Assembly (NCBI GenBank): GCA_017543265.1
Contig: JAFYGI010000008.1
Span: 1 to 64,000, forward strand
Reading direction: 5' to 3'
From: Bacillota bacterium
GTDB taxonomy: Bacteria; Bacillota; Clostridia; Lachnospirales; CAG-274
Length of the DNA: 64,000 nucleotides
Part shown: in pieces, positions 48,976-64,000 of the stretch
Layout of the letters: each line of letters opens with the position of its first letter
Position numbering within the stretch: position 1 is the first letter of the stretch
The notes under the pieces: model-generated
Told to the model about the DNA's origin: nothing
What the model saw: the letters and a program-made list of their open reading frames with translations, nothing else
Databases searched by the model: none
Made by a program: the position numbers and the translations under genes

Positions 48976-49182
48976 GTGAAAGCAACAGGAATAGTAAGAA
49001 GAATAGACGATCTCGGCCGAATAGTCATCCCCAAGGAGATAAGGCGCACCCTGCGTATACGCGAGGGGGACCCGCTGCTGACAACATTGTTACTAATGGA
49101 AAATACAGTAAATAAGCGGTTTTTGAAGGAAACTTTTGCTGCTGTGATTGGACAAATCGAAAAAAGAATAGGTGCGATTTGA
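48976..49182 (+). pseudogene. spoVT: spoVT 5' end, interrupted by the integrated element
   Basis: Codons 1-34 encode the start of SpoVT (KATGIVRRIDDLGRIVIPKE and on to REGDPL), almost identical to the known AbrB-type swapped-hairpin N-terminus. The GTG start at 48976 is 8 bases from AAGGAGG; the ATG at 48970 is too close. After GDPL at the 12-bp att core the frame continues for 34 foreign codons to a stop. The DNA-binding domain is cut, so this 68-residue product cannot be a working SpoVT. The rest of the gene begins at 63980 (GDPLEIY). SpoVT controls forespore genes in sporulation. Confidence 0.92.
49066..49077. other. attL core of the integrated element
   Basis: GGGGACCCGCTG is identical to the core at 63980-63991. 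Host spoVT sequence lies to the left and element sequence to the right. Confidence 0.85.
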
Positions 49183-49287: not shown

Positions 49288-50382
49288 ATGACAAATATAA
49301 ATACCATACCCGAAAGATTTTACTTTCACGGGAACGAGATCGAACAATTTATACACATTCAGGTGCCTATTGCACTTATCAAAGACAAGATTTTCAAGGG
49401 AATATCTACCGATGCAAAGCTGCTGTATGGTTTATTGCTGAACAGGACGGGGTTATCCATTAAGAACCATTGGCTTGACAGCGATAACCGTACTTATATT
49501 ACATACACCATTGAAAATGTTATGGAAGATTTAGGCATTGGCAGTACGAAGGCAAAGAAATTATTTGCCGAACTTATTGACATTAACGGCACAGGTATAG
49601 GGCTTATTAAAAAGGTTCGAGTACTGAACAAGCCGAGCAGGATCTATGTTTTAAACTTCACACAGGTTTTTAAGTATCTCAAGCGTATATGCGGCGAAAC
49701 ACAGGTTATTAATGAGGAAATATGTAACGACAACAAAATAATCACTGAAAATAATCCACAAACCGATGTGGATTATTTTTTTACCCATTCGGAAGCGTCC
49801 GTCGAAGAGACTGATATGCGACCTACTGACGGTCACGAGGACGACTCTCTGACGGACACACCTGCGTCTGCTAATTATAATAATACAATAAATAACAATA
49901 AAAGAGATATTAATTCTATCAATCTATCTTGCGATAGGTCGATTGATGGGAATAAATGCGCGGATATTTCAAGTGCTGATTATTTAGCTTACAAACAGCT
50001 TATCAAAGACAACATCGGTTATGACGAACTTGTAAATTGCATAGAAATAGGTGTTTTAAGCAATGACAGTCTTGATTACTTAAACGAGATAGTTGAGCTA
50101 ATGACCGAAATCGTAAGCTGTGCAGCTAAGCCTATAAAAATAAACGGCAACAGCTATCCTGCGGAAATCGTAAAGAATAGGTTCTTGAAACTCGATTATC
50201 ACGATATTTATGCAGTTTTGGAATGGTTTGAAAAGCCAAATGCCGACGGCAGCAATCTTGTGCGCGTCAAAAATATGCGAGCATACCTGATAAGTATGCT
50301 GTTCAACAGCAAAACTACAAGAAATACAGACTTTAAAAATTATTTTAATGCAAGTTACTATGGAAATTTTAAGGAGGAATGA
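49288..50382 (+). CDS. RepA_N-family replication initiator with DUF6017-like C-terminus
   Basis: The 364-residue protein begins with the RepA_N pattern: PIALIKDKIFKGISTDAKLLYGLLLNRTGLS, then YTIENVMEDLGIGSTKAKKLFAEL, a winged-helix DNA-binding domain of Firmicutes plasmid and ICE initiators. A variable linker follows. The C-terminal part (about 245-360) resembles DUF6017, often fused to this initiator type. It suggests that the excised circle can replicate. GTGAGGAAAG precedes the ATG. Confidence 0.88.
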   Translation: MTNINTIPERFYFHGNEIEQFIHIQVPIALIKDKIFKGISTDAKLLYGLLLNRTGLSIKNHWLDSDNRTYITYTIENVMEDLGIGSTKAKKLFAELIDINGTGIGLIKKVRVLNKPSRIYVLNFTQVFKYLKRICGETQVINEEICNDNKIITENNPQTDVDYFFTHSEASVEETDMRPTDGHEDDSLTDTPASANYNNTINNNKRDINSINLSCDRSIDGNKCADISSADYLAYKQLIKDNIGYDELVNCIEIGVLSNDSLDYLNEIVELMTEIVSCAAKPIKINGNSYPAEIVKNRFLKLDYHDIYAVLEWFEKPNADGSNLVRVKNMRAYLISMLFNSKTTRNTDFKNYFNASYYGNFKEE

Positions 50383-50918: not shown

Positions 50919-51323
50919 ATGGAAAACAGAAAAAGAAACGAAAGATTAAATTTAAGATTTTCAGAAGAAGAACGTGATGCACTTTACAAAATGAAAGAAA
51001 AAGGCGGTTACAAGACTCTTGTCGATATGGTGACTGCGGCAGTCAACGGGCGTAAAATTGTTAAAATCAACACAGCACCTTTACTTGGCATATTGGGCGA
51101 GTTAAGCAGAATTTCGGTAAATATCAGGCAGATCGAGCGTGTTGCTCAACAATGCGGAACTCGAAATCGTCTGTTTGCCGAAATGAAACAGGATATAATG
51201 GAATTAACTGAATTTGTTCAGAAAAAACTTGATTTGCTTGAAGCAGCAAAGAAAGGAGATTTTGATGGCTTATACAAAGATTATGCCGATAAAAGACCGA
51301 ACCCACTTACAGACGAGCATTAA
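50919..51323 (+). CDS. MobC-like relaxosome accessory protein
   Basis: The 134-residue basic protein starts with a ribbon-helix-helix-like segment (RNERLNLRFSEEERDALYKM). It then has the MobC pattern LLGILGELSRISVNIRQIERVAQQ, as in proteins that help the relaxase at oriT. It overlaps the relaxase gene by 59 bases in another frame, a usual arrangement. Confidence 0.85.
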   Translation: MENRKRNERLNLRFSEEERDALYKMKEKGGYKTLVDMVTAAVNGRKIVKINTAPLLGILGELSRISVNIRQIERVAQQCGTRNRLFAEMKQDIMELTEFVQKKLDLLEAAKKGDFDGLYKDYADKRPNPLTDEH

Positions 51324-52848
51324 CTACATTATTTCGCCCGAAAAGACCTCAAATCAGGTCTATGTTGAGGGATTTTACTGCACTCCTGCCCGCGCCGAAA
51401 AGGATTTTGAATACATTTACAATATGGGTACGAAAATCGGCTGTATAAAAGCACATCATATCGTGCAGTCATTTACACCCGATGATAAAATAACACCCGA
51501 ACAGGCTATGGAAATCGGTCGGAAACTGATGCATCGCTTATACCCGGATCATCAGTATGTGTTGGCTGTGCATATTGATAACGGTCAAGTGCATAATCAC
51601 ATTTTGGTCAATGCGGTAAATTTTACCGACTACAAAAAACTGTATGCTACAAAGAAAAGTCTTGAAAGCTTGCGTAAAATTAGCGATGATCTATGCCGTG
51701 AAAACGGATTGGAGATCATACCGCCCGACAGCAAACTTCAAAAAATGCGTTTGCAGGCTTCTATCGATGCCGCGATAGAACGGGCACATACTTTTGATGA
51801 ATTTATCGGTATAATGAAATCGTTTTATTATGAAGTGAAACACGATAAGTATTACACTTTCAAATGTATGGAAGATGCACGGTTTATGCGTATGAACTCA
51901 TTGGGAACGGCGTATTCGGAAGAAGCAATAAAAAAGCGTATAAGCGGAGAAAAGATAAGAAATCAGTCCATATCCGTCTATTACAACAAGCAAAAACGTT
52001 TGTCTAACCGTGCAAAACTGAAAGACACGATACGATATGCCTTGAAAAATTCAAACAGCTATGATGAATTTTTACACTTGCTGAAAAATGAGGGGATAGA
52101 AATAAAAACAGGTATGCACCTTGCTATGCGTATTCCAATGGCAAAAAAGTTCATCCGCGTCGAAAGGCTTGGTACGGAATATTCGGAAGATATGCTGAAA
52201 CTGTACTTTGCGAATCGCGGAGAGTATGTACGCCTTAAAAACGAGGCTGACCAAACCAAGATCCAACATTTGGCGCAAAATGCCGAATACAACAAATATG
52301 CCGCTGTTCATAACATCAATGTTCAGATCCGTATGATGAATGCACTTTCGGAAATGGGCATAGACGGTATTGATGAATTAAAGGCAAAAATTGAAGAACT
52401 TGAAGAACAAGTCAACGATAACAGCCGTGATATGGAAATCATTTCAGAAAGATTAAATGATGAGCGAAATTATATCTACGCTGTGCGTAATTACTGGCGT
52501 TTAAAGCCTATATATGCGGAGTATAAAAGTATAAAATCCGATGCTGACAAAGAGATCTTTATGCTGGATCGCCAACAGGATGTAGATGATTATAAACGTG
52601 TTGTCGATACAATAAATGCGGTAAAAGCAAGCGGGAAATTCAAAGATACCGCAAGTGTAAAAGCCAATATCAAAGCCGACGAGCAAAAGAAAGCCGAATT
52701 GGAAGAACAACGCAAAAAATACAAGGAAGAACTGCAAAAATGCAGGCTTATACTTGAAAATCTTAAAAGTATTGGACTTGCGGAAGAAGAAAACAAAATC
52801 GACGCGGAAGAATATACTTATTCATCTCATCACGATAATTCAAGGTAA
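51265..52848 (+). CDS. MobP-type relaxase
   Basis: The 528-residue protein nicks the transfer origin and leads the strand into a recipient. The N-terminal 165 residues hold the relaxase/mobilization nuclease domain: a start at AYTKIMPIKDRTHLQTSINYI, the H-rich KAHHIVQSF and the metal site VHIDNGQVHNHILVN. The rest is helical with a coiled coil (about 370-500). The chosen ATG has GGAG in front; the frame is open 17 codons upstream. Confidence 0.9.
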   Translation: MAYTKIMPIKDRTHLQTSINYIISPEKTSNQVYVEGFYCTPARAEKDFEYIYNMGTKIGCIKAHHIVQSFTPDDKITPEQAMEIGRKLMHRLYPDHQYVLAVHIDNGQVHNHILVNAVNFTDYKKLYATKKSLESLRKISDDLCRENGLEIIPPDSKLQKMRLQASIDAAIERAHTFDEFIGIMKSFYYEVKHDKYYTFKCMEDARFMRMNSLGTAYSEEAIKKRISGEKIRNQSISVYYNKQKRLSNRAKLKDTIRYALKNSNSYDEFLHLLKNEGIEIKTGMHLAMRIPMAKKFIRVERLGTEYSEDMLKLYFANRGEYVRLKNEADQTKIQHLAQNAEYNKYAAVHNINVQIRMMNALSEMGIDGIDELKAKIEELEEQVNDNSRDMEIISERLNDERNYIYAVRNYWRLKPIYAEYKSIKSDADKEIFMLDRQQDVDDYKRVVDTINAVKASGKFKDTASVKANIKADEQKKAELEEQRKKYKEELQKCRLILENLKSIGLAEEENKIDAEEYTYSSHHDNSR

Positions 52849-53043: not shown

Positions 53044-54018
53044 TTAGTCTGCACAATATTTAGTTATAAGATTTTCAATCTTAGTTATTTTCTTGCTAAT
53101 TTGAACAAGGTTATTTCTGTTTATATATGGAATAGACTGGATAAGAAAAGCACGGTAACCAGCTAATTTATTTTTTATTGTATATTTTTCTTTGTTGGAT
53201 TTAAAACCTTTAAATTGCTTTTTCCCCATTTCATAAATAATATTGTTTAATTGTGAAAGTTTCTTTCTTGATAATCTGATACTATTACCTACTACATAAC
53301 CATTAAGAGATATTTCATTTTTATATTTAAGTGTTTTTTTTGTATTAAGATTGAAGCCTTTTTCGCTTATTATAGTCTTAATCATATTTTGAAATCTGTA
53401 ATTGTGGATATAACTTGAATCCGACGAAAAAAGCATATCATCGGCATAACGAGTATAAGTTATATTTAACATCTTGCAATATTTTTCTATTCTAATATCT
53501 AAACTTCTAAATACGAGATTTGATAGTATCGGTGAAGTTAGCGCTCCTTGAATTATTTTGTCATCAATTGTCGTTATTCCAATAATATTATTTATAATCA
53601 GTTGTTTTTCTTCAGATGAAATGCTGTCATCAATATAGTAATTAAGCGATTCTTCAATATCATCGACATCTATTGAGCCAAAAAAATCTGAAATATCAAG
53701 TCTCAAGTAATATCTTGGTTCATTACTTGATATATGGGGAATTAAAAAATCATAGTATGATTTTCTTTTCCTGAATCCACAAACACATTCCGGAAATAGT
53801 AAATTCATAAAAAAGGAGTTTTTCAGTTTATTTTGTAATTCATATATCAAATTATTCTTTTTTATAGCATAAATTATTCTAAAACCCTCTTTTTTGGCTT
53901 TTTTGTAACAATGATAAGCACTTTTTTTATTATTAAGTGCTAAAGCCATTTTTTCCTCTGAAATCTCAACAATTTCATCAAAAAATTGGCTTTTACTAGT
54001 TATTCTAAATCCTATCAT
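53044..54018 (-). CDS. Retron reverse transcriptase
   Basis: The 324-residue enzyme (from the second ATG, which has AGGAG seven bases away) has motif A YLRLDISDFFGSI (about 105-117), the QGALTSPILSNLV block (157-169), the catalytic YADD (191-194) and LNGYVVGN (238-245) in the position of the retron thumb motif. The short single-domain size and the structured RNA directly upstream support a retron. The NAxxH motif often seen before motif A is not conserved (only a His in FLIPH), so it is a divergent member. It makes the branched msDNA that guards the effector. Confidence 0.85.
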   Translation of the reverse strand: MIGFRITSKSQFFDEIVEISEEKMALALNNKKSAYHCYKKAKKEGFRIIYAIKKNNLIYELQNKLKNSFFMNLLFPECVCGFRKRKSYYDFLIPHISSNEPRYYLRLDISDFFGSIDVDDIEESLNYYIDDSISSEEKQLIINNIIGITTIDDKIIQGALTSPILSNLVFRSLDIRIEKYCKMLNITYTRYADDMLFSSDSSYIHNYRFQNMIKTIISEKGFNLNTKKTLKYKNEISLNGYVVGNSIRLSRKKLSQLNNIIYEMGKKQFKGFKSNKEKYTIKNKLAGYRAFLIQSIPYINRNNLVQISKKITKIENLITKYCAD

Positions 54019-54033
54019 TATCATTCTCCTAAA

Positions 54034-54059
54034 AATTAAGAGAGCATTTCTGCTCCCTT
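54034..54059 (-). terminator. Hairpin between the retron RNA and the reverse transcriptase gene
   Basis: On the minus strand, AAGGGAGCA and TGCTCTCTT pair over 9 bases (one wobble) with a GAAA tetraloop, followed by AATTTTT and then the reverse transcriptase ribosome binding site. It should reduce read-through, keeping the RNA in excess over the enzyme. Confidence 0.7.
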
Positions 54060-54064
54060 AGATG

Positions 54065-54254
54065 AGTGAGTACTTCCCAGAATACCGCACCGCGAGTTTA
54101 CGCAATCCAAAGGCCACGAGCGGTATACTGCGTCTATAGTGTTAGCAATTATTATACCCTTGGATTCTACACATACACTCAGCGCCTGCCTTATGTACAA
54201 ATTTCACAAGGATGCAGTATATAAACGTCCTATACGTGCAAATTCCTACTCACT
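54065..54254 (-). ncRNA. Retron msr-msd RNA
   Basis: The minus-strand transcript starts six bases after the effector stop. Its ends, AGTGAGTA (a1, 54254-54247) and TACTCACT (a2, 54072-54065), are perfect 8-base complements, as retron RNAs require, and GG directly after a1 can supply the branching guanosine. Small hairpins (ACGT/ACGT, CCTT/AAGG) form the msr. A long hairpin follows for msd: 54104-54110 pairs with 54160-54166 and 54122-54127 with 54153-54158, with a GAGT/ACTC base. It lies immediately upstream of the reverse transcriptase gene. Confidence 0.75.
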
Positions 54255-54260
54255 AATTTA

Positions 54261-56198
54261 TTATATCATATTTTCAATGATTTGTAAAGTATGATACAAT
54301 TCAGGAAAATCTTTTTTAAATCTTTGTTTTTTATCAGCAATAGAAGCCAAGGGGGCTATCCTTAATTTAAAATAATAATTAAGCCAATCGGATATCCAAC
54401 CGCTTGTTTTATCTGTTGCTTTGCTAACAGTGTTGCTTTTAAAGTAAGCAGATTTAAAAATTTCATTTTTGCCATTGTATTCGGATAAAATTAAAATGGT
54501 TTTTTCTTTAGTATCTACTTCCGAACAAAAATGGTTATGTTGCTTTGTATGTTTAATCCCTTCATCGTCAATAAATTTTATAAAATCGTCTATATTTTCA
54601 TAAGTGATAATACTACCCTCTATTGTAGACCAATTAACTATAACATTATAATAATTACAATAGTTTATTATGGCAAACATTAATTGGTTAAAATCATTGT
54701 CGTTAATATAGTTTTTATTAGAAACTAATGTATAATTCTTTTTCAATAAATAATTTATAAGCGATCTTATATTTGTAATATCTCCGCCTATGATAGTATT
54801 GTAAAACTTAAATTGCTCCTTTTTTTGAATACACTTATTCGAAAGCGGATTTACAGTTTGTTCAGAATTTATATTAAATTTATTCTTTTTATTGTATTGA
54901 AGTACTTTGTCCATATCAATTAACAATTTATATGGCACACCTAAATTTAGATTGTCAGAAAGAACCGTTCTAAGCCTTTTATCATTACTGTCAAATGAAT
55001 AGAAATGTACTTTTTTTAATTTATCAAATAACTCCAGTATTTTTGGATGACTGAATAATTGTATTTCTGTTTCTCCTTCAACATAAACAAGACAATCACT
55101 AAAATAGCATTCTGTTTCACGAACAGTTACTTTGTGTTTTGAGTTTTTAATCCACGAAATATTCATTTTATTTATAACAGAATAGAAACCTTTTCTGGTA
55201 ACTCTATAAATAGAATAATCAGTATTTTGGTTATTAAGATCAGCTATTAGCTTTGGTGAATGAGTGCTTATCATACAAAAGGCATTTTTCTTTATATTCC
55301 GACACATATATTCAACAAACTCCGTAATATATTCATTATGAAGGCTAATTTCCGGTTCATCTATCAATAAAATAGGAAATTTGCAACTTATATCAGAAAT
55401 TTGAGGAATCAATGCTGTTAGTAATTTAAGATATGTAAATGAACTCGTGCCATCTGAATAATAATCAAGAGAATGCCCGTCAAAAACAAATTGATTCCCA
55501 CCAAAACGCATGGAAAACGCATTTTTATATCGTTCAGTAAAGTGATATTTATCTAAAGAAACATTGTATTCATTAAACACATTTTCTATAATATCTTTGC
55601 TCGAATTGTATTTTTCACCATAGATATCAAAAAATGCCTTGTCCAATATTTGTTTATAATCATCATTTGGTTTAGCCGAAGATAAATCACTGATGATTTG
55701 CCATAGCTTATCCCATGTATATAAATCAAGTCTTCTAGTATCTATATAGTATAATGGAAAAATTGATTTAATAGTATCGCATATGTGTTTATCTTCTATA
55801 TTCCATCTAATTGTCCCATCTCTAAATTGAATCATAGTAAGTTCAAGTTCTTCAGTTTCTGTAAAATCATAACTCTTATTTTTAGTTATATATTCATATA
55901 TTCTTTTAAATTCATTGCTTAGTTTTTTGTTTTGGTCTGCTTTTCTGGACAATAGATCAAATTGAAAAGCAATGGAAATTATGCACTTTTGTGTATAAGG
56001 GTTAGCACTATCAATTATTTGTTCTTCGGAATAAGGTTTGCCAATATACCTAAAAAAATAATCTATTGCTTTAAATATATTTGTTTTTCCTGATCCATTT
56101 TTCCCTAATAAACAAAAAATATCACTATGATCACTTTTTGAATCAATTACAATATTCTCTATGGATTTGTAATTTTGAATACTGATTTTGTTAATCAT
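54261..56198 (-). CDS. Retron effector: OLD-like ATPase with TOPRIM nuclease domain
   Basis: The 645-residue protein has an ABC-type ATPase domain: Walker A GKNGSGKT (32-39), Walker B ILLIDEP (276-282) and STHS (311-314). A TOPRIM domain follows with VYVEGETE (E374) and LLIDMD (D428, D430). Overcoming-lysogenization-defect (OLD) nucleases share this design, and the same fusion is the effector of some type I retrons such as Eco8. It lies upstream of the retron RNA, in the same direction, and is probably the toxic part held in check by the reverse transcriptase-msDNA complex. Confidence 0.85.
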   Translation of the reverse strand: MINKISIQNYKSIENIVIDSKSDHSDIFCLLGKNGSGKTNIFKAIDYFFRYIGKPYSEEQIIDSANPYTQKCIISIAFQFDLLSRKADQNKKLSNEFKRIYEYITKNKSYDFTETEELELTMIQFRDGTIRWNIEDKHICDTIKSIFPLYYIDTRRLDLYTWDKLWQIISDLSSAKPNDDYKQILDKAFFDIYGEKYNSSKDIIENVFNEYNVSLDKYHFTERYKNAFSMRFGGNQFVFDGHSLDYYSDGTSSFTYLKLLTALIPQISDISCKFPILLIDEPEISLHNEYITEFVEYMCRNIKKNAFCMISTHSPKLIADLNNQNTDYSIYRVTRKGFYSVINKMNISWIKNSKHKVTVRETECYFSDCLVYVEGETEIQLFSHPKILELFDKLKKVHFYSFDSNDKRLRTVLSDNLNLGVPYKLLIDMDKVLQYNKKNKFNINSEQTVNPLSNKCIQKKEQFKFYNTIIGGDITNIRSLINYLLKKNYTLVSNKNYINDNDFNQLMFAIINYCNYYNVIVNWSTIEGSIITYENIDDFIKFIDDEGIKHTKQHNHFCSEVDTKEKTILILSEYNGKNEIFKSAYFKSNTVSKATDKTSGWISDWLNYYFKLRIAPLASIADKKQRFKKDFPELYHTLQIIENMI

Positions 56199-56283: not shown

Positions 56284-56872
56284 GGTCACGTATTATCTTT
56301 TTATATTCCTCTGATTTTCCGTTATACAGTACATCAATAATTACATCAAGTGCTTCATTGGCTAAATTGCATATTTCATCACCTTCGTTTATTTCATATC
56401 CCATAATAGCTACTTCAATGTTTATAAACCACCATTTTGTGATTTTCTTATATAATGCAATCATTTCAAAAAAAGCCTTAACTTCTTCTTTTCCATCCAC
56501 ACCTGATAAAATGATATTTGTTAATTCATGTGCATATTTGTTACGAATACTCTTGATTTTCGAAAACAAATCATAGTCATCACTTGAAATTGCGTTATTA
56601 TCTTTAAGCCATAAAAAAGATGCTTTGGTAATATCCTTATTTTTCTTATTATCTACAATACGATTTTTTATTTCGTCTTGATAAATCTCAGTTTTCTTTA
56701 TTACTATTTCACCATTTTCTATAGTTTCCTCGCACAATAAGAACTCAATATTCGATACAACATAATCTGTGAAATTCTCGTATACGGCAATAAATAATGA
56801 TACAAATGTTAAATTATCTTGTAGGAAATCTTCGTCAACAATATTGTTAATCCAATCATTATTTCTTTCCAT
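56273..56872 (-). CDS. HEPN-domain protein linked to the restriction-modification gene
   Basis: The 199-residue helical protein resembles the MAE_28990-type HEPN group. KSIRNKYAHEL at about 107-117 holds the RxxxxH RNase motif (R-N-K-Y-A-H), and the rest is helices without a second domain. HEPN proteins are often RNases in defence systems or toxins. Its start overlaps the restriction-modification stop by one base, so the two are co-translated and probably one system. Confidence 0.75.
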   Translation of the reverse strand: MERNNDWINNIVDEDFLQDNLTFVSLFIAVYENFTDYVVSNIEFLLCEETIENGEIVIKKTEIYQDEIKNRIVDNKKNKDITKASFLWLKDNNAISSDDYDLFSKIKSIRNKYAHELTNIILSGVDGKEEVKAFFEMIALYKKITKWWFINIEVAIMGYEINEGDEICNLANEALDVIIDVLYNGKSEEYKKIIRDLEK

Positions 56873-58008
56873 TATTTGCCCTCCGTCAGTTTCTGATACA
56901 TCTTCATAAGTTCAGCTACGCACTCGCTTTCGGTGTTGAGTTTGCCCCAAAATCCGTAGGCTTGCATAACAGCTTTATCGTTCTGCTGATGTGCCTTGCG
57001 AAGTTCGGGCGGCATGGTTGTTTCATCGTAGAGATCGGCAAGCGAACAATCGGGATATTTCGCCCTTGCATCAAGTATCATTTGTGCGGTTTGTTCTATT
57101 TTAGCTTTTTGCTCGTTAGTGGGGATGCACCATGGAAAATTATTGTATACTACTTCCTTAGAATAACGATAGTCGCTTTTAATTCTTCCACATACCGTTC
57201 TAATCCATGCCATGTGTACATTTGATAACAACACACCAAAAATATAGAGTGAAGCATTAGGAACAATCATATTTGCATTGCTACAAATAATATTTGAATC
57301 TACATATCCAATAGGGATATACTTTCTGTTTTCGGATGAATGACACGGTATTATCAAATATGAATGAGAAGGTTGTCTAATTTCTCCGAATAGAGTAGGC
57401 GTTTCAGCAAGTTTCTTTGTTCCCGCTCTATTGCTTTCAATTCTGGTTTTTCTTACATTTTGTACTGCTTCATATATCGGTGGAATAGCATTAATGATTT
57501 TTGGTGATACTCCTTGCAACCACAAGCACCATCTTTCCTTGTTATGTAAAAATTCTGTTGCACCAACAAATCTCTTAAACAAAGGTTCTGCGTTTGGATA
57601 ATTTTTTACAATTTCATTTTTTTCATCCGATGAAAAATCTGATAAAAATCCACCGTCATTCGGCATACTTCCGAAATCCATTCTTGGAACAATTGAAATC
57701 GGTTGCTTTCTTTTAGATATAATCACATCATCCGCTTCAACAAGATAACCATTGATGTTTTTAACAAATTTTTCAAAACCATTATCAAACAATCTCTTAG
57801 GAGCAGTATTAGCAGCAATGCTGAATCCAACAATGACACAATGAACATGAGCTTTTATAGTCGCTTCGCTATCCCAACGAAAAGTACGATGTGCAAAATC
57901 AATATGAACGCCTTTTTCAAAAAGAGTTTTCCAAAGAATGGCAACTTGCTCTCCCTGTGTTATGCTATTGGTAGAAACAAGTGTAGTTCTTATTGTTGTA
58001 CCTGCCAT
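56872..58008 (-). pseudogene. C-terminal part of an MmeI-like restriction-modification enzyme
   Basis: The 378-residue fragment holds the target-recognition and C-terminal helical parts of an MmeI-like (type IIL) enzyme. FAHRTFRWDSEA is the segment after the methylase, and KVVYNNFPWCIP lies near the end. It is in the same frame as the gene upstream, 11 codons after its TAA stop (VSCWYKKCADL lies between), so the two were one gene of about 921 codons. An ATG at 58008 could start it alone, but no good ribosome binding site is seen. Confidence 0.8.
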
Positions 58009-58041
58009 AAGGTCAGCACATTTTTTATACCAACACGAAAC

Positions 58042-59637
58042 TTAGTCAAGATTTCCGTTATTCTTTACACCATCAAAAATTTTTAATACATCTGATTTTT
58101 GTTCGCTATTCATTAATCTTGCACCCACAAACGGCGGATTTCCCATGATATAAGACAGCTTATCTTTCGGCACAACACTTTCCCAATCAATACGAAGCGA
58201 ATTTTCCTCAACGATATTTGCATAACTTTTCAGTGGCAGAAAATCGAGGTCTGCATGAATTATCTCTTCGGTCTCATGCATCATCTGACTTTCGGCTATC
58301 CAAAGTGCGGTCTTTGCGACAGTTACGGCAAAGTCGTTTATTTCTATTCCGTAAAATTGTCCGATGCCAACTTTTATGGGAATAACTCCACCGAGTATCA
58401 TCTGACCGCCGTGTATGGCTTCCAAAGCCTTATTTTCAAGACGACGCAGGCTGATGTAGGTTTCCGTGAGGAAGTTTCCCGAACCGCAGGCAGGGTCGAG
58501 GAAGGTAAGCGAAGCAAGTTTATCACGAAATTGCTCCAGTTTTGCTTTTCTTGTTTTATCGACCTTTGTTTCACAAATTTCCGCAAATTCCGTCTTTAAA
58601 TCATCAAGAAACAGCGGATCAATAACTTTGTGAATATTTTCGATAGAAGTATAGTGCATACCGCCCGAACGTCTTGTTTCGGGATTCAGCGTGCTTTCAA
58701 ATACTGCACCAAAGATAGTAGGGCTTATGTCTGCCCAATCAAAGTTCTCACTTGCACCGTTTATAAGCAAACCGACAATTTCATCGGTAAATCGAGGTAT
58801 CTCAATGTTTTCATCGGCAAACAAACCGCCGTTCACATAAGGAAAAGCCGCAAGGTCATCATCCATATAAGGATCACGGTCTTCGGGTTTAGTGTCGAGG
58901 ACTTGAAACAGTTCTATCAAAGCTTTGCGGACATCTTTGGGTTGAAAATGCGAAAGATATTGCCCGAACATTCTGTGCTTACCAAATATTTCGGAATCTT
59001 CCGCATATAAGCAGAATACAAGTCTTACACAAAGCATATTAAGGCTTTTGAGTGTTTCGGGGCTTTCGGGGTTCTTGTATTGCTTTAATATTGCATCATA
59101 AAGTTTTCCGACAAGTTCGCCCGCCTTCAAAGAAATTTCCATTTCCTTTTTAAGCATTTCACTGCCTGTTTCAACAAGAAATTGCAGTCGATAAAAATCT
59201 TTGGCAAGGTCTTTGAGAAATATTTGCTCGGGTTCACCGTTCGGCTTTTCCATATCGTAGACAAGAAATTCCTCAAAATTACAAGTAATTATCCAACGTG
59301 GGTGCTGCGACAGCGGCAGTTCGGTAACATAACGCTTTGCCTGCTGGAATGGAGTCAGCAATGAACCGTCGGATTGCTTGATAGGCTTTCGCAGATCTTT
59401 GCCGATAGACTTTTGCTCGATCATAACACGGGTGGATCTGATATAACCGTCTATAAAAGAGGTATGGTCTAAATGAACCTGATCTTCAAAACTGATAAAT
59501 CCGGCAATATCTTCCACACCATAAACATTTACAAGTAAATCTATCCAAAATTGCTGAGATTGTCCTTTTTCATATCCTTTACCCTGCCACCTTTGAGCAA
59601 AGTCCTTAGCTGCCTTTTTCTGTTCCTTTTCGTTCAT
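58042..59637 (-). CDS. N-terminal nuclease-methylase part of an MmeI-like restriction-modification enzyme
   Basis: The 531-residue protein has a PD-(D/E)xK nuclease at the N-terminus (D63, then E74-Q75-K76), a helical spacer, and a gamma-type adenine methylase with FLDPACGSGNFL (near 395) and catalytic NPPF (near 504). It ends early at TAA (58044-58042), where family members continue. MmeI-like enzymes methylate and cut DNA with one chain, so this truncated chain lacks its recognition domain unless the stop is read through. Confidence 0.85.
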   Translation of the reverse strand: MNEKEQKKAAKDFAQRWQGKGYEKGQSQQFWIDLLVNVYGVEDIAGFISFEDQVHLDHTSFIDGYIRSTRVMIEQKSIGKDLRKPIKQSDGSLLTPFQQAKRYVTELPLSQHPRWIITCNFEEFLVYDMEKPNGEPEQIFLKDLAKDFYRLQFLVETGSEMLKKEMEISLKAGELVGKLYDAILKQYKNPESPETLKSLNMLCVRLVFCLYAEDSEIFGKHRMFGQYLSHFQPKDVRKALIELFQVLDTKPEDRDPYMDDDLAAFPYVNGGLFADENIEIPRFTDEIVGLLINGASENFDWADISPTIFGAVFESTLNPETRRSGGMHYTSIENIHKVIDPLFLDDLKTEFAEICETKVDKTRKAKLEQFRDKLASLTFLDPACGSGNFLTETYISLRRLENKALEAIHGGQMILGGVIPIKVGIGQFYGIEINDFAVTVAKTALWIAESQMMHETEEIIHADLDFLPLKSYANIVEENSLRIDWESVVPKDKLSYIMGNPPFVGARLMNSEQKSDVLKIFDGVKNNGNLD

Positions 59638-59664: not shown

Positions 59665-60711
59665 TTAATTCTGTTCTCTTTGCTCCAACATCGATTTTGC
59701 ATTTGCGATAGCCAATGACAATTTTTGTTCCAACAATGCTTTTGGCGGCATTTTTGTAAGATACTGTGCAACGTGGATACTTCCTTTGTCAAGTTCTAAC
59801 AGTTCTACAGTTTCTTGTGATTTTTCGGCACATAATATCAGCGCTACGGGAGACTCCTCATATTCCGCTTTTTCGTATTTCTCAAGCCACCTCAAATACA
59901 ATTCCGTCTGTCCTTTATCCTGCGGCTCAAATTCTCCGAGTTTTAATTCTATAAGCACTAATCGTCTCAAAGAACGATGATAAAAAAGCAAGTCCATATA
60001 ATAGTCCTTGCCATCTATAACGATATGCTTTTGTCTTGCAAGAAAAGCGAAGTCCGAACCCATTTCAAGTATAAACTTCTCCAATTCTGCCAATATGGCA
60101 TTTTCCAAATCTTTTTCGCTGTAAGAGTCTTTCAATCCCAAGAAATCAAGCATATATGGGTCACGATAAAACATATCAAGGCTCATTTTATTTTCATCGC
60201 GCAGCTCGGCTATTTCGTTTGCAATGGTTTCACCCGGTTTTTTGGATATAGCTGTGCGTTCATAAAGCATTGATTTTTTACGCTCTCTTAATGTTCTGAC
60301 CGACCAATTTTCTTTTCTTGACATTGTAGCATAGAAGTTTCTTTTTAATTCATCTTGAATAGGCAGTAACTCAACAAAATGCGACCACGTTAATTGTTGC
60401 GACAGTGTCGCAACAATCTCATACTCGGGGAATTCATTATAAAAATTCATCATTCTTGAAATGGCAGAACGCCCAAAATTCTTGCCATATTCAGCAGATA
60501 ATCTGCTGCCAATCTCTCCTATGATGTTTTTTCCGTAATCCGCCTTATTTCCGGGAACAATATTCGCAGATAAAGTCTTTCCTATTTCCCAATACATTTT
60601 TATTACAGATGTATTTACTGAATACATTACGGATTTTTTTGTCGATACGATTATCCCCGAAATATCCGTATATATTTTTTCTATATCAAAATTAGAAATT
60701 TCATTAGCCAT
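59665..60711 (-). CDS. YhcG-like (DUF1016) PD-(D/E)xK nuclease
   Basis: The 348-residue protein has the DUF1016 N-terminal helical domain (SRMMNFYNEFP, LTWSHFVELLP) and a C-terminal nuclease domain with DFAFLARQKHIVIDGKDYYMDLLFYH and VLIELKLGEF, which supplies the D and ExK residues. YhcG-type proteins are found next to type I and type IIL restriction systems and are thought to act on DNA ends. The frame opens at 60801, but the promoter -10 lies at 60760, so the ATG at 60711 with GGAAGG is chosen. It is the first gene of the defence cargo. Confidence 0.88.
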   Translation of the reverse strand: MANEISNFDIEKIYTDISGIIVSTKKSVMYSVNTSVIKMYWEIGKTLSANIVPGNKADYGKNIIGEIGSRLSAEYGKNFGRSAISRMMNFYNEFPEYEIVATLSQQLTWSHFVELLPIQDELKRNFYATMSRKENWSVRTLRERKKSMLYERTAISKKPGETIANEIAELRDENKMSLDMFYRDPYMLDFLGLKDSYSEKDLENAILAELEKFILEMGSDFAFLARQKHIVIDGKDYYMDLLFYHRSLRRLVLIELKLGEFEPQDKGQTELYLRWLEKYEKAEYEESPVALILCAEKSQETVELLELDKGSIHVAQYLTKMPPKALLEQKLSLAIANAKSMLEQREQN

Positions 60712-60759
60712 AAAATTACCTTCCCGTTTCATTCTTCTGTACAAATATTTTCTGATATA

Positions 60760-60788
60760 ATTATAAGATAAATACATTTTTAATTCAA
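60760..60788 (-). promoter_or_regulatory. Sigma-A promoter of the defence operon
   Basis: On the minus strand, TTGAAT (60788-60783), 17 bases and a consensus TATAAT (60765-60760) lie 49 bases before the YhcG-like start. Confidence 0.75.
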
Positions 60789-60801
60789 GTACCAATCGCA
60801 A

Positions 60802-61847: not shown

Positions 61848-62087
61848 ATGCAAATACAGATAAATAAAAAAATAAAATGTGTAAGTGTTTGGCTCACTAA
61901 CGAAGAAAGTCAAAATGCCGAAATTCAGGAACGGTTAAACAACATTTATGCAGAATATAAAAACACAAAATACAAGGTTGCGGTTTTTTATTCGGGCAGT
62001 GAAAATTTATACGATCTCACAGAGGGATTGATAAAGCATAATAAGCACTTATCCGAAAAAAGTGAAGATGAAGCTGTGGGTTTCTGA
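61848..62087 (+). CDS. Small element-encoded protein
   Basis: The 79-residue protein has a strong AGGGGGTG before its ATG and a beta-alpha pattern (KCVSVWLTNEESQ, then VAVFYSGSENLYDLTEGLI). Small proteins of this shape often precede serine recombinases in Firmicutes elements. The function is not known to me. The next gene is 158 bases downstream with its own promoter. Confidence 0.75.
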   Translation: MQIQINKKIKCVSVWLTNEESQNAEIQERLNNIYAEYKNTKYKVAVFYSGSENLYDLTEGLIKHNKHLSEKSEDEAVGF

Positions 62088-62221: not shown

Positions 62222-62245
62222 GTTATCAGTAAGGGGGTGTTTGAT

Positions 62246-64000
62246 ATGGCATTGAACATTGCCGGATATTGTAGAATATCTGTTGACGATGATTTAGACC
62301 AAGACAATACAAGTATAGAAAACCAAGCTGCAATAATCAAAAGATATGTTCAAGAGAATTTTCCAACGGCAAATCTCGAATTTTTCTGTGACAGAGACAG
62401 GTCGGGCTACACATTTGAACAGCGCGAAGACTATCAGAGAATGAGACCGCAGTTGATGAACGGCACATTTAACATTTTGATAATCAAAGATTTCAGCCGC
62501 TTTTCAAGAAGAAACAGCAAAGGGCTTGTTGAGTTGGAAGATTTAAGAGATGCAGGAGTTAGGATAATCTCAATAGGCGACAGTATTGACTATCCTACAC
62601 AAGATGAGTGGATGGCAATTCAATTTCGCTTTTTGATAAATGAAATGCCTGTTACCGATACAAGCAAGAAAGTAAAAAATGTAATTCGCCGCAGACAGTC
62701 AGACGGTTGTTGGATATGTTCCGTTCCATACGGATATATCATTACCGACACAAAACGAATGACCTTTGAGGTTGATGATATTGCTGCATCTGTTGTTAAA
62801 GAAATATTTGAATTGTACAGCAAAGGGTGGGGATATAAGAAGATCGCCAATTACCTGACTGAGAAAAAAGTTCCCACACCAAGAATGCTTGAAAAGTCAA
62901 GAAAAGATGCAAAGGGCATCGAAAACAAAATAAAGGCTAAACAGGAATGGAGCATAGTTTCGGTATCGGGAATATTAAGCAACGATTTTTATATCGGCAC
63001 TTTGAGACAGGGAAAATACAAAAGGGCAAAAATAAACGGAAAAGATGTAAAAAATGATGAAAGTGAGCATATTGTCTTTGAAAAAAATCATGAGCCGATA
63101 GTTGACGAGCGATTGTTTATGAAAGTACAGGATATGCTGAAACAGCGTACAAGAGAACATTCCAACTACCGCGGCATCAAAAAATACGATACTTCTTATT
63201 CGGGATTTTTGTTCTGCGGAGATTGCGGAAGTCCGATGTTTTCGATGAGCCGTCCCGATCTGGCGGCCGCCTATACCTGCGGAACATATCACAAACGGGG
63301 CTTAAAAGGCTGTACTTCACATCACACAAGAATAGACCTTTTGGATACGCTTTTAAAAAGCTATATACAAATGGTCAAGGAAAATTCAATGGATATGATA
63401 AGGCAGCTTGAGGCTGCGATAGCAAATGAGCCGATATTTGTAAATCACAACACAAATCTGTTGGATAAATTGGAGCAAGATCTTGAAAGTGCAAAAGAGC
63501 AGTTAAAAGTTTTGTCAAAACAGAAAATGAAAGAAATAATGCGCCGCCCCGAACACGCGGATACCATTGAAGAAATGTATGATGAGATGGAACAGGAGCA
63601 ATTAACACTTATCGAAAGTTTAAAGGGGCAAATAACAATAGCTGCCAATAAAAGAAACAGTTTGATAAGTGCAAACCGAAAAGCCAAAACAGTAATTGAG
63701 ATCTTCGATGATATTTTAAACAAAGACACACTCGATAAAAGTGATTTGAGTTTTATTCTTGACAGGATCACTATTTATAATGACCATATTGATATTAAAC
63801 TGAAAGCGGATATTGATATGTTATTAAAGATAAACACCGAGAATACAACACAAATACCTTTGGAGAATGCCGTAAATTTTAAGTTGGGCACTAATAGTGA
63901 AGATTCGTCACAATATACTTTTTCATATCATGTAAGAAATCAGGGTATGAAGTCTATTAGTGTCAATGTTATCAGTGACGGGGACCCGCTGGAGATATAC
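62246..64000 (+). CDS. Large serine recombinase, fused in frame to the spoVT 3' part
   Basis: The frame is open for 585 codons to the window end. Residues 4-150 are the resolvase domain with catalytic S12 in YCRISVDDD and the DRSGYTF and DFSRFSRR segments. A recombinase domain (about 165-285), a zinc ribbon (CGDCG near 324 and CGTYH plus C further on) and a coiled coil (about 400-490) follow. It should catalyse integration and excision of the element. From 63980 the reading continues in the spoVT frame (GDPLEIY), so no stop of its own remains in the integrated state. AGGGGGTG precedes the ATG at 62246. Confidence 0.93.
   Translation, partial: MALNIAGYCRISVDDDLDQDNTSIENQAAIIKRYVQENFPTANLEFFCDRDRSGYTFEQREDYQRMRPQLMNGTFNILIIKDFSRFSRRNSKGLVELEDLRDAGVRIISIGDSIDYPTQDEWMAIQFRFLINEMPVTDTSKKVKNVIRRRQSDGCWICSVPYGYIITDTKRMTFEVDDIAASVVKEIFELYSKGWGYKKIANYLTEKKVPTPRMLEKSRKDAKGIENKIKAKQEWSIVSVSGILSNDFYIGTLRQGKYKRAKINGKDVKNDESEHIVFEKNHEPIVDERLFMKVQDMLKQRTREHSNYRGIKKYDTSYSGFLFCGDCGSPMFSMSRPDLAAAYTCGTYHKRGLKGCTSHHTRIDLLDTLLKSYIQMVKENSMDMIRQLEAAIANEPIFVNHNTNLLDKLEQDLESAKEQLKVLSKQKMKEIMRRPEHADTIEEMYDEMEQEQLTLIESLKGQITIAANKRNSLISANRKAKTVIEIFDDILNKDTLDKSDLSFILDRITIYNDHIDIKLKADIDMLLKINTENTTQIPLENAVNFKLGTNSEDSSQYTFSYHVRNQGMKSISVNVISDGDPLEIY
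63980..63991. other. attR core of the integrated element
   Basis: GGGGACCCGCTG repeats the attL core. The bases after it (GAGATATAC) continue the SpoVT coding sequence expected after GDPL. Confidence 0.85.

Follow-up and report, generated by a model that had tools for sequence, protein, structure and literature searches.

What becomes of a recombinase when the site that it recombines lies inside its own gene, and the partner site lies in the same frame inside a host regulator? The question is raised by contig JAFYGI010000008.1 of a Bacillota bacterium (GCA_017543265.1, a draft genome of 2.49 Mb), of which the first 64,000 of 99,689 bases, here called the window, were analysed. A mobilizable element sits inside the sporulation gene spoVT in this window, and the element's large serine recombinase gene reads across the right boundary into the displaced remainder of spoVT. 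A preliminary description had placed the element's attachment site (attP) within the recombinase gene and had proposed that integration swaps 3' ends with spoVT in frame. Both proposals were borne out, and the in-frame exchange of 3' ends is confirmed at the level of the sequence. The explanation that best fits the locus as a whole is an attP in the recombinase's own gene, an in-frame exchange with spoVT, and a reversible interruption of a sporulation gene; we consider it probable.

The element is bounded by a 12-bp core, GGGGACCCGCTG. The examined contig sequence contains two copies of it and no more, one at the left junction (attL; 49066–49077, + strand) and one 14.9 kb away at the right junction (attR; 63980–63991, + strand). 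GC content is 35% between the copies and 49% in the surroundings. The core codes for GDPL in one common frame in spoVT and in the recombinase gene, as the preliminary description had read it. On the left, SpoVT codons 1–34 (GTG start at 48976; 48976–49077, + strand; translation matching MazE_antitoxin at 8.8e-08 and spore_V_T at 4.4e-18) end in the attL core and are presently fused to the native tail of the recombinase (34 codons and a TGA; 49078–49182, + strand), giving a 68-aa open reading frame (ORF). On the right, the recombinase gene (start at GTG 62237 or ATG 62246; 62237–64000 in the window, + strand) passes through the attR core into the SpoVT 3' half, which starts at codon 35 (63992–64000 in the window, + strand) and lies mostly beyond the window end, to the right of the element. 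Read past position 64000, the frame meets no early stop and runs to the natural SpoVT stop at contig position 64432. The fusion ORF has 731 aa, with Resolvase, Recombinase, zinc-ribbon, and SpoVT_C domains (SpoVT_C match, whole-protein E value of 2.4e-46). Pfam families PF00239, PF07508, and PF13408 are all above cut-off in this one long protein, and the SP-beta integrase YokA is among the solved-structure matches of the recombinase. Its catalytic domain, zinc ribbon, and coiled coil all lie upstream of the core.

Both halves of the exchange can be undone in silico. Rejoining the element ends yields the recombinase of the circle, 619 aa long if it starts at GTG 62237 and 616 aa long if it starts at ATG 62246; it takes its 34-residue tail from 49078–49179 and stops at TGA 49180–49182. 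The length of about 616 residues and these coordinates had been predicted correctly. Rejoining the flanks yields an intact, uninterrupted SpoVT of 180 aa, so the element precisely interrupts a sporulation gene that is restored on rejoining, as skin does. The reading frame is shared by attP and the host site (attB), which makes integration a reciprocal in-frame exchange of 3' ends.

The rebuilt attP is a 54-bp dyad that lies wholly within the native recombinase coding sequence. Its left half (63957–63983, + strand) is a dyad arm inside the recombinase coding sequence, presently in attR, and its right half (dyad arm CTGACAACATTG...; 49070–49096, + strand) is presently in attL. The dyad centre falls between 63983 and 63984. 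Twenty-one of 27 positions are complementary on either side of the central two bases, GA, a value that none of 20,000 shuffles reached. Six further attP sites rebuilt from related elements have 17–22 of 27 dyad matches, with no more than one in 20,000 shuffles as high. The seven rebuilt sites fit the attP form of large serine recombinases, about 50 bp with dyad arms around a central dinucleotide (inferred centre, GA). The native gene would stop 34 codons past the core, with attP about 30 codons before the stop.

Tails in related elements show that these 34 residues are a true C-terminal end of the recombinase and are under constraint. Homologs of the tail occur in 15 other elements. Together, sixteen distinct left ends encode tails of 23–34 residues after the core, and in none of these comparisons did the recombinase end well before the core, an outcome that would have spoken against the preliminary description. 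The tails open with the attP arm (mostly L-x-T-L), and by inspection many continue with the look of a basic amphipathic helix. Endings include GAI, WKL, KRL, FST, WST, RRI, YIK, and similar; by inspection, none of the tails has an alanine-rich ssrA-like ending. For each tail, only 13%–20% of shuffles of the downstream DNA place a stop in the range of 22–34 codons, and the joint chance for all tails is about 1e-13 (by shuffling, with shared ancestry ignored). Nonsynonymous divergence (dN) is lower than synonymous divergence (dS) in six of seven tail pairs, and in five it is at or below roughly one third of dS. Two of the seven pairs contain the tail from the window; they compare distant relatives, lie near saturation, and are weak or uninformative, one of them showing no constraint. 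The idea that the tail is out-of-frame junk was rejected on the tight length range and on dN below dS in most pairs.

We searched for the same arrangement elsewhere. Relatives of the recombinase occur in further genomes from the host's genus, family, and order, and viral-contig and phage records contributed others. Scanning genome contigs identified 409 recombinase relatives, of which the best 80 (56%–77% identical) were kept; these came from Ruminococcus, other Oscillospiraceae, Lachnospiraceae, and others. Recombinases of the related elements are overall 39%–77% identical and derive mostly from gut and rumen Clostridia. Besides the window, 78 distinct loci carry complete recombinase–SpoVT fusions at the same codon, in frame, to the normal SpoVT end, and four further fusions are interrupted by a contig end. 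All sense-oriented insertions in spoVT (82 of 82) are in frame at the same codon despite a variable linker length before the core, GDPL stands at the junction in nearly all of them, and each complete fusion keeps the SpoVT 3' half open as far as the usual stop. That all sense insertions hold the frame while the linker changes in length suggests selection for reading through the core. Linker and tail sequences themselves vary widely among relatives. Named species with the junction are Ruminococcus flavefaciens, R. bicirculans, and Anaerotruncus massiliensis, and in a one-contig genome (G304) attL and the fusion are both present, approximately 34 kb apart. Synteny of the spoVT flanks is low, and occupied and empty sites are not comparable beyond approximately 100–200 bp.

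A few loci depart from this pattern. Two insertions (L072 and L085) are backwards, and their recombinases run into the antisense strand of SpoVT codons 1–34, which supplies an unrelated tail. At the central dinucleotide, one of the two reads GA and the other TC, a difference that would fit resolution of a mismatch in opposite directions. The recombinases of L051 and L088 read into their own tails, and L040 is at a different site. Tailed SpoVT start fragments, or a self-tailed recombinase, were also observed beside or in addition to an intact spoVT (L147 and L148, genome G009, contig C1 at 95763 and 127202; L152 and L155, genome G010; genome G294, contigs C70 and C45; and L051). In some of these cases no recombinase of the family lies close by, and G294 holds three start fragments. 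Such fragments may reflect composite arrays or spoVT repair.

Divergence was compared between the two halves of the fusions in seven element pairs. Recombinase dS is lower than that of the attached SpoVT in six of the seven, for example 0.014 versus 0.97, 0.088 versus 0.563, 0.17 versus 0.43, and 0.21 versus 0.79; the exception is L019/L024, with 0.29 for the recombinase and 0.17 for SpoVT. The recombinases have very low dN relative to dS. With silent-site divergence usually much lower in the recombinase than in the SpoVT attached to it, the two halves usually have different histories, and the junctions were formed by separate integrations into the spoVT of each host. A low dN/dS in the fused SpoVT part was considered as proof of selection on the fusion and dropped, because SpoVT divergence mostly predates the fusions.

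For SpoVT, the preliminary description had suggested that the regulator could change activity with integration, and by inference a change of state is close to certain. Codons 1–34 cover 28 of the 48 positions in the model for the AbrB/MazE-type DNA-binding domain. With only a partial domain in the SpoVT start, DNA binding should be lost during integration, and we infer that integration inactivates SpoVT by splitting this AbrB-type domain. The host genome encodes SpoIVA above the family cut-off and a strong sigma-G homologue match just below it. No second intact spoVT was identified in the host, where the sole other match is a short AbrB-like one at position 76002 of contig C49. Heat-resistant spores of Clostridioides difficile depend on SpoVT (PMC3789822), and in Bacillus cereus the protein is essential for sporulation (PMC5061766). 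Given this need and the lack of a second intact copy, excision is the likely route to sporulation for this host, which would regain spoVT as with skin and gin (PMC5595907).

The mechanism that we propose starts with the recombinase joining attP in its own coding sequence to spoVT codons 31–34. On integration, as the sequences show, the enzyme gives up a short constrained tail and acquires the SpoVT remainder with its GAF domain, while SpoVT codons 1–34 acquire the tail, and across the recombinase family the exchange is made anew with the spoVT of each host. The recombinase body, zinc ribbon, and coiled coil stay whole, and the enzyme is probably still able to excise. Excision would probably involve the product of a conserved small gene directly upstream (79-aa ORF; 61848–62087, + strand) as a directionality factor. 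A related ORF is recognisable in 61 of the 75 loci with enough upstream sequence, and the window's copy has no Pfam family above cut-off. Excision would restore both proteins exactly, making the element a reversible interruption of a sporulation gene, like skin and gin.

Several observations weigh against this explanation. The unintegrated attP pattern is absent from 391 genomes of the class and was not found in viral contigs either, and neither an excised circle nor a restored attB was seen for the source strain. The sole hint of excision is L088: its recombinase runs into the native tail at a contig end, and the same contig contains attL (a SpoVT start with a near-identical tail). This suggests a circular or tandem copy in the sample, and a tandem copy could give the same picture. 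The small upstream gene is the best candidate for a directionality factor by position and conservation only. The lack of a captured circular form and of attP in the 391 genomes could mean that the element is stuck and that spoVT is a dead gene in these hosts. Permanent disruption of this kind is nevertheless very unlikely, given a SpoVT 3' half that is open to its normal end in every complete fusion, the very low dN relative to dS of the recombinases, and the uncoupled divergences of recombinase and SpoVT, which point to repeated mobility. Most of the genomes are metagenome assemblies, which might raise the suspicion of an assembly artefact or a chance coincidence of frame. Independent assemblies, named species, and a one-contig genome all show the same junction; on this recurrence, chance and assembly error were ruled out, and we give them practically no weight.

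A separate matter is whether the exchange affects the recombinase itself. The preliminary description had suggested a built-in switch. In such a switch, the tailed form of the circle and the SpoVT-fused form of the integrated state would differ in activity or direction, with the GAF domain or the lost tail setting integration versus excision. The C-terminal swap might alter how active the enzyme is or which direction it takes. The tail is constrained and is always traded for a complete SpoVT C-terminal part in frame, excerpts of PMC5737554 describe artificial fusions that can change the direction of large serine recombinases, and the repressor of phage BPs is switched on by the loss of a 33-residue tail through an attP inside its gene (PMC4557955). 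Against this stand the predicted fold, the inverted insertions, and the separate candidate factor. In the fold predicted for the fusion protein (from an alignment that left out one phage-record row; mean pLDDT, 73; pTM, 0.32), the recombinase body and the SpoVT C-terminal domain are separate folded units (blocks mostly at pLDDT 71–89), joined by a linker of approximately 60 residues (532–595) with pLDDT below 50. The two inverted insertions carry an unrelated antisense tail, and the candidate directionality factor is conserved in its own right. Linker-joined domains, an intact body, and the small upstream gene together favour ordinary excision governed by a separate factor over control through the exchanged tail, and we regard a built-in switch as doubtful. 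A stronger form, in which the captured GAF domain gates excision, so that departure of the element and repair of spoVT would both await conditions that the domain senses, and the tailed form of the circle favours integration, is less likely still. The exchange might instead have no regulatory effect: attP would lie in the gene because enzyme and site pass on together as a compact unit, and reading through the core would keep an open, terminated gene in both states. This differs from a switch only in the effect on the recombinase and is compatible with reversible interruption of spoVT by in-frame exchange. Widely varying linker and tail sequences, a linker predicted to be disordered, and the existence of backwards insertions with a nonsense tail fit it, whereas the constraint on tail length and on several tail pairs, and the absence of out-of-frame sense insertions despite variable linker length, do not. 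We hold it as a tentative possibility, somewhat short of an even chance.

By gene content, the 14.9-kb element is an integrative mobilizable element. In addition to the recombinase, it encodes a RepA_N/DUF6017 replication initiator (49288–50382, + strand), a NikA-like mobilization protein (50919–51323, + strand), and a MobA/VirD2-type relaxase (51214–52848, + strand; longest ORF, the true start may be later). No conjugation genes were identified among the ORFs of at least 80 aa inspected between the cores. Cargo genes include a type I-B retron of the Eco8 family that spans 53044–56198, with a reverse transcriptase (53044–54024, − strand) and an ATPase-TOPRIM effector (54261–56198, − strand). 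An MmeI-type (type IIG) restriction-modification enzyme (56872–59637) is split over two adjacent ORFs, a C-terminal part (56872–58008, − strand) and an N-terminal part (58042–59637, − strand); the division may be natural or may stem from a frameshift or an error in sequencing. These are followed by a DUF1016/YhcG-type PDDEXK nuclease (PADLOC PDC-S02; 59665–60801, − strand).

Parts of this arrangement have precedents. Skin in sigK, SP-beta in spsM, and gin in gerE are sporulation gene-intervening elements (excerpts of PMC5595907, PMC5025042, and PMC4191935). As there, a serine recombinase element interrupts a sporulation gene, precise excision can restore the gene, and a small directionality factor takes part (a candidate here). 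The target here is spoVT, and excision during sporulation, by which the known elements reconstitute their genes, is for the present element a prediction. A fusion of recombinase and host gene is not mentioned in the excerpts on skin, SP-beta, and gin. The large serine recombinases surveyed in PMC10083194 are of the same class and also insert inside conserved genes; the main text of that survey mentions neither spoVT nor an attP inside a recombinase gene. We found no paper on spoVT as a serine recombinase target or attB, in a literature search whose coverage left out most subscription papers and which does not prove that the arrangement is unreported. The forespore regulator gene spoVT thus joins the sporulation genes interrupted by mobile elements, in many gut and rumen Clostridia, and the arrangement is common to more than 80 related elements.

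The closest parallels to the attP itself come from a phage and from archaea. In mycobacteriophage BPs, attP lies in the repressor gene, and integration removes a 33-residue ssrA-like degradation tag (PMC4557955). Both systems have attP in a coding gene and lose a C-terminal tail at integration (33 residues in BPs, 34 here), giving a state-dependent protein. BPs alters its repressor, whereas the present element alters its recombinase, exchanges a host gene in frame, and has no ssrA-like tail. The naturally made forms (native tail, SpoVT fusion, and backwards insertion) make a state-dependent integrase directly testable. In archaeal suicidal (SSV-type) integrases, attP lies in the integrase's own gene, which is altered by integration and restored by excision, an arrangement described in a 2021 review as exclusive to archaeal tyrosine integrases (PMC8371274). 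The present locus places it in bacteria, in the class of serine recombinases that serves widely as a tool for genome engineering. In both systems, the enzyme and its site make up a single compact module. The archaeal enzymes are tyrosine integrases whose gene is split, with the catalytic domain separated and inactivated. The bacterial serine recombinase keeps its catalytic body whole and is, unlike them, probably still competent for excision; it trades its tail in frame for a host domain and would survive integration carrying that new domain.
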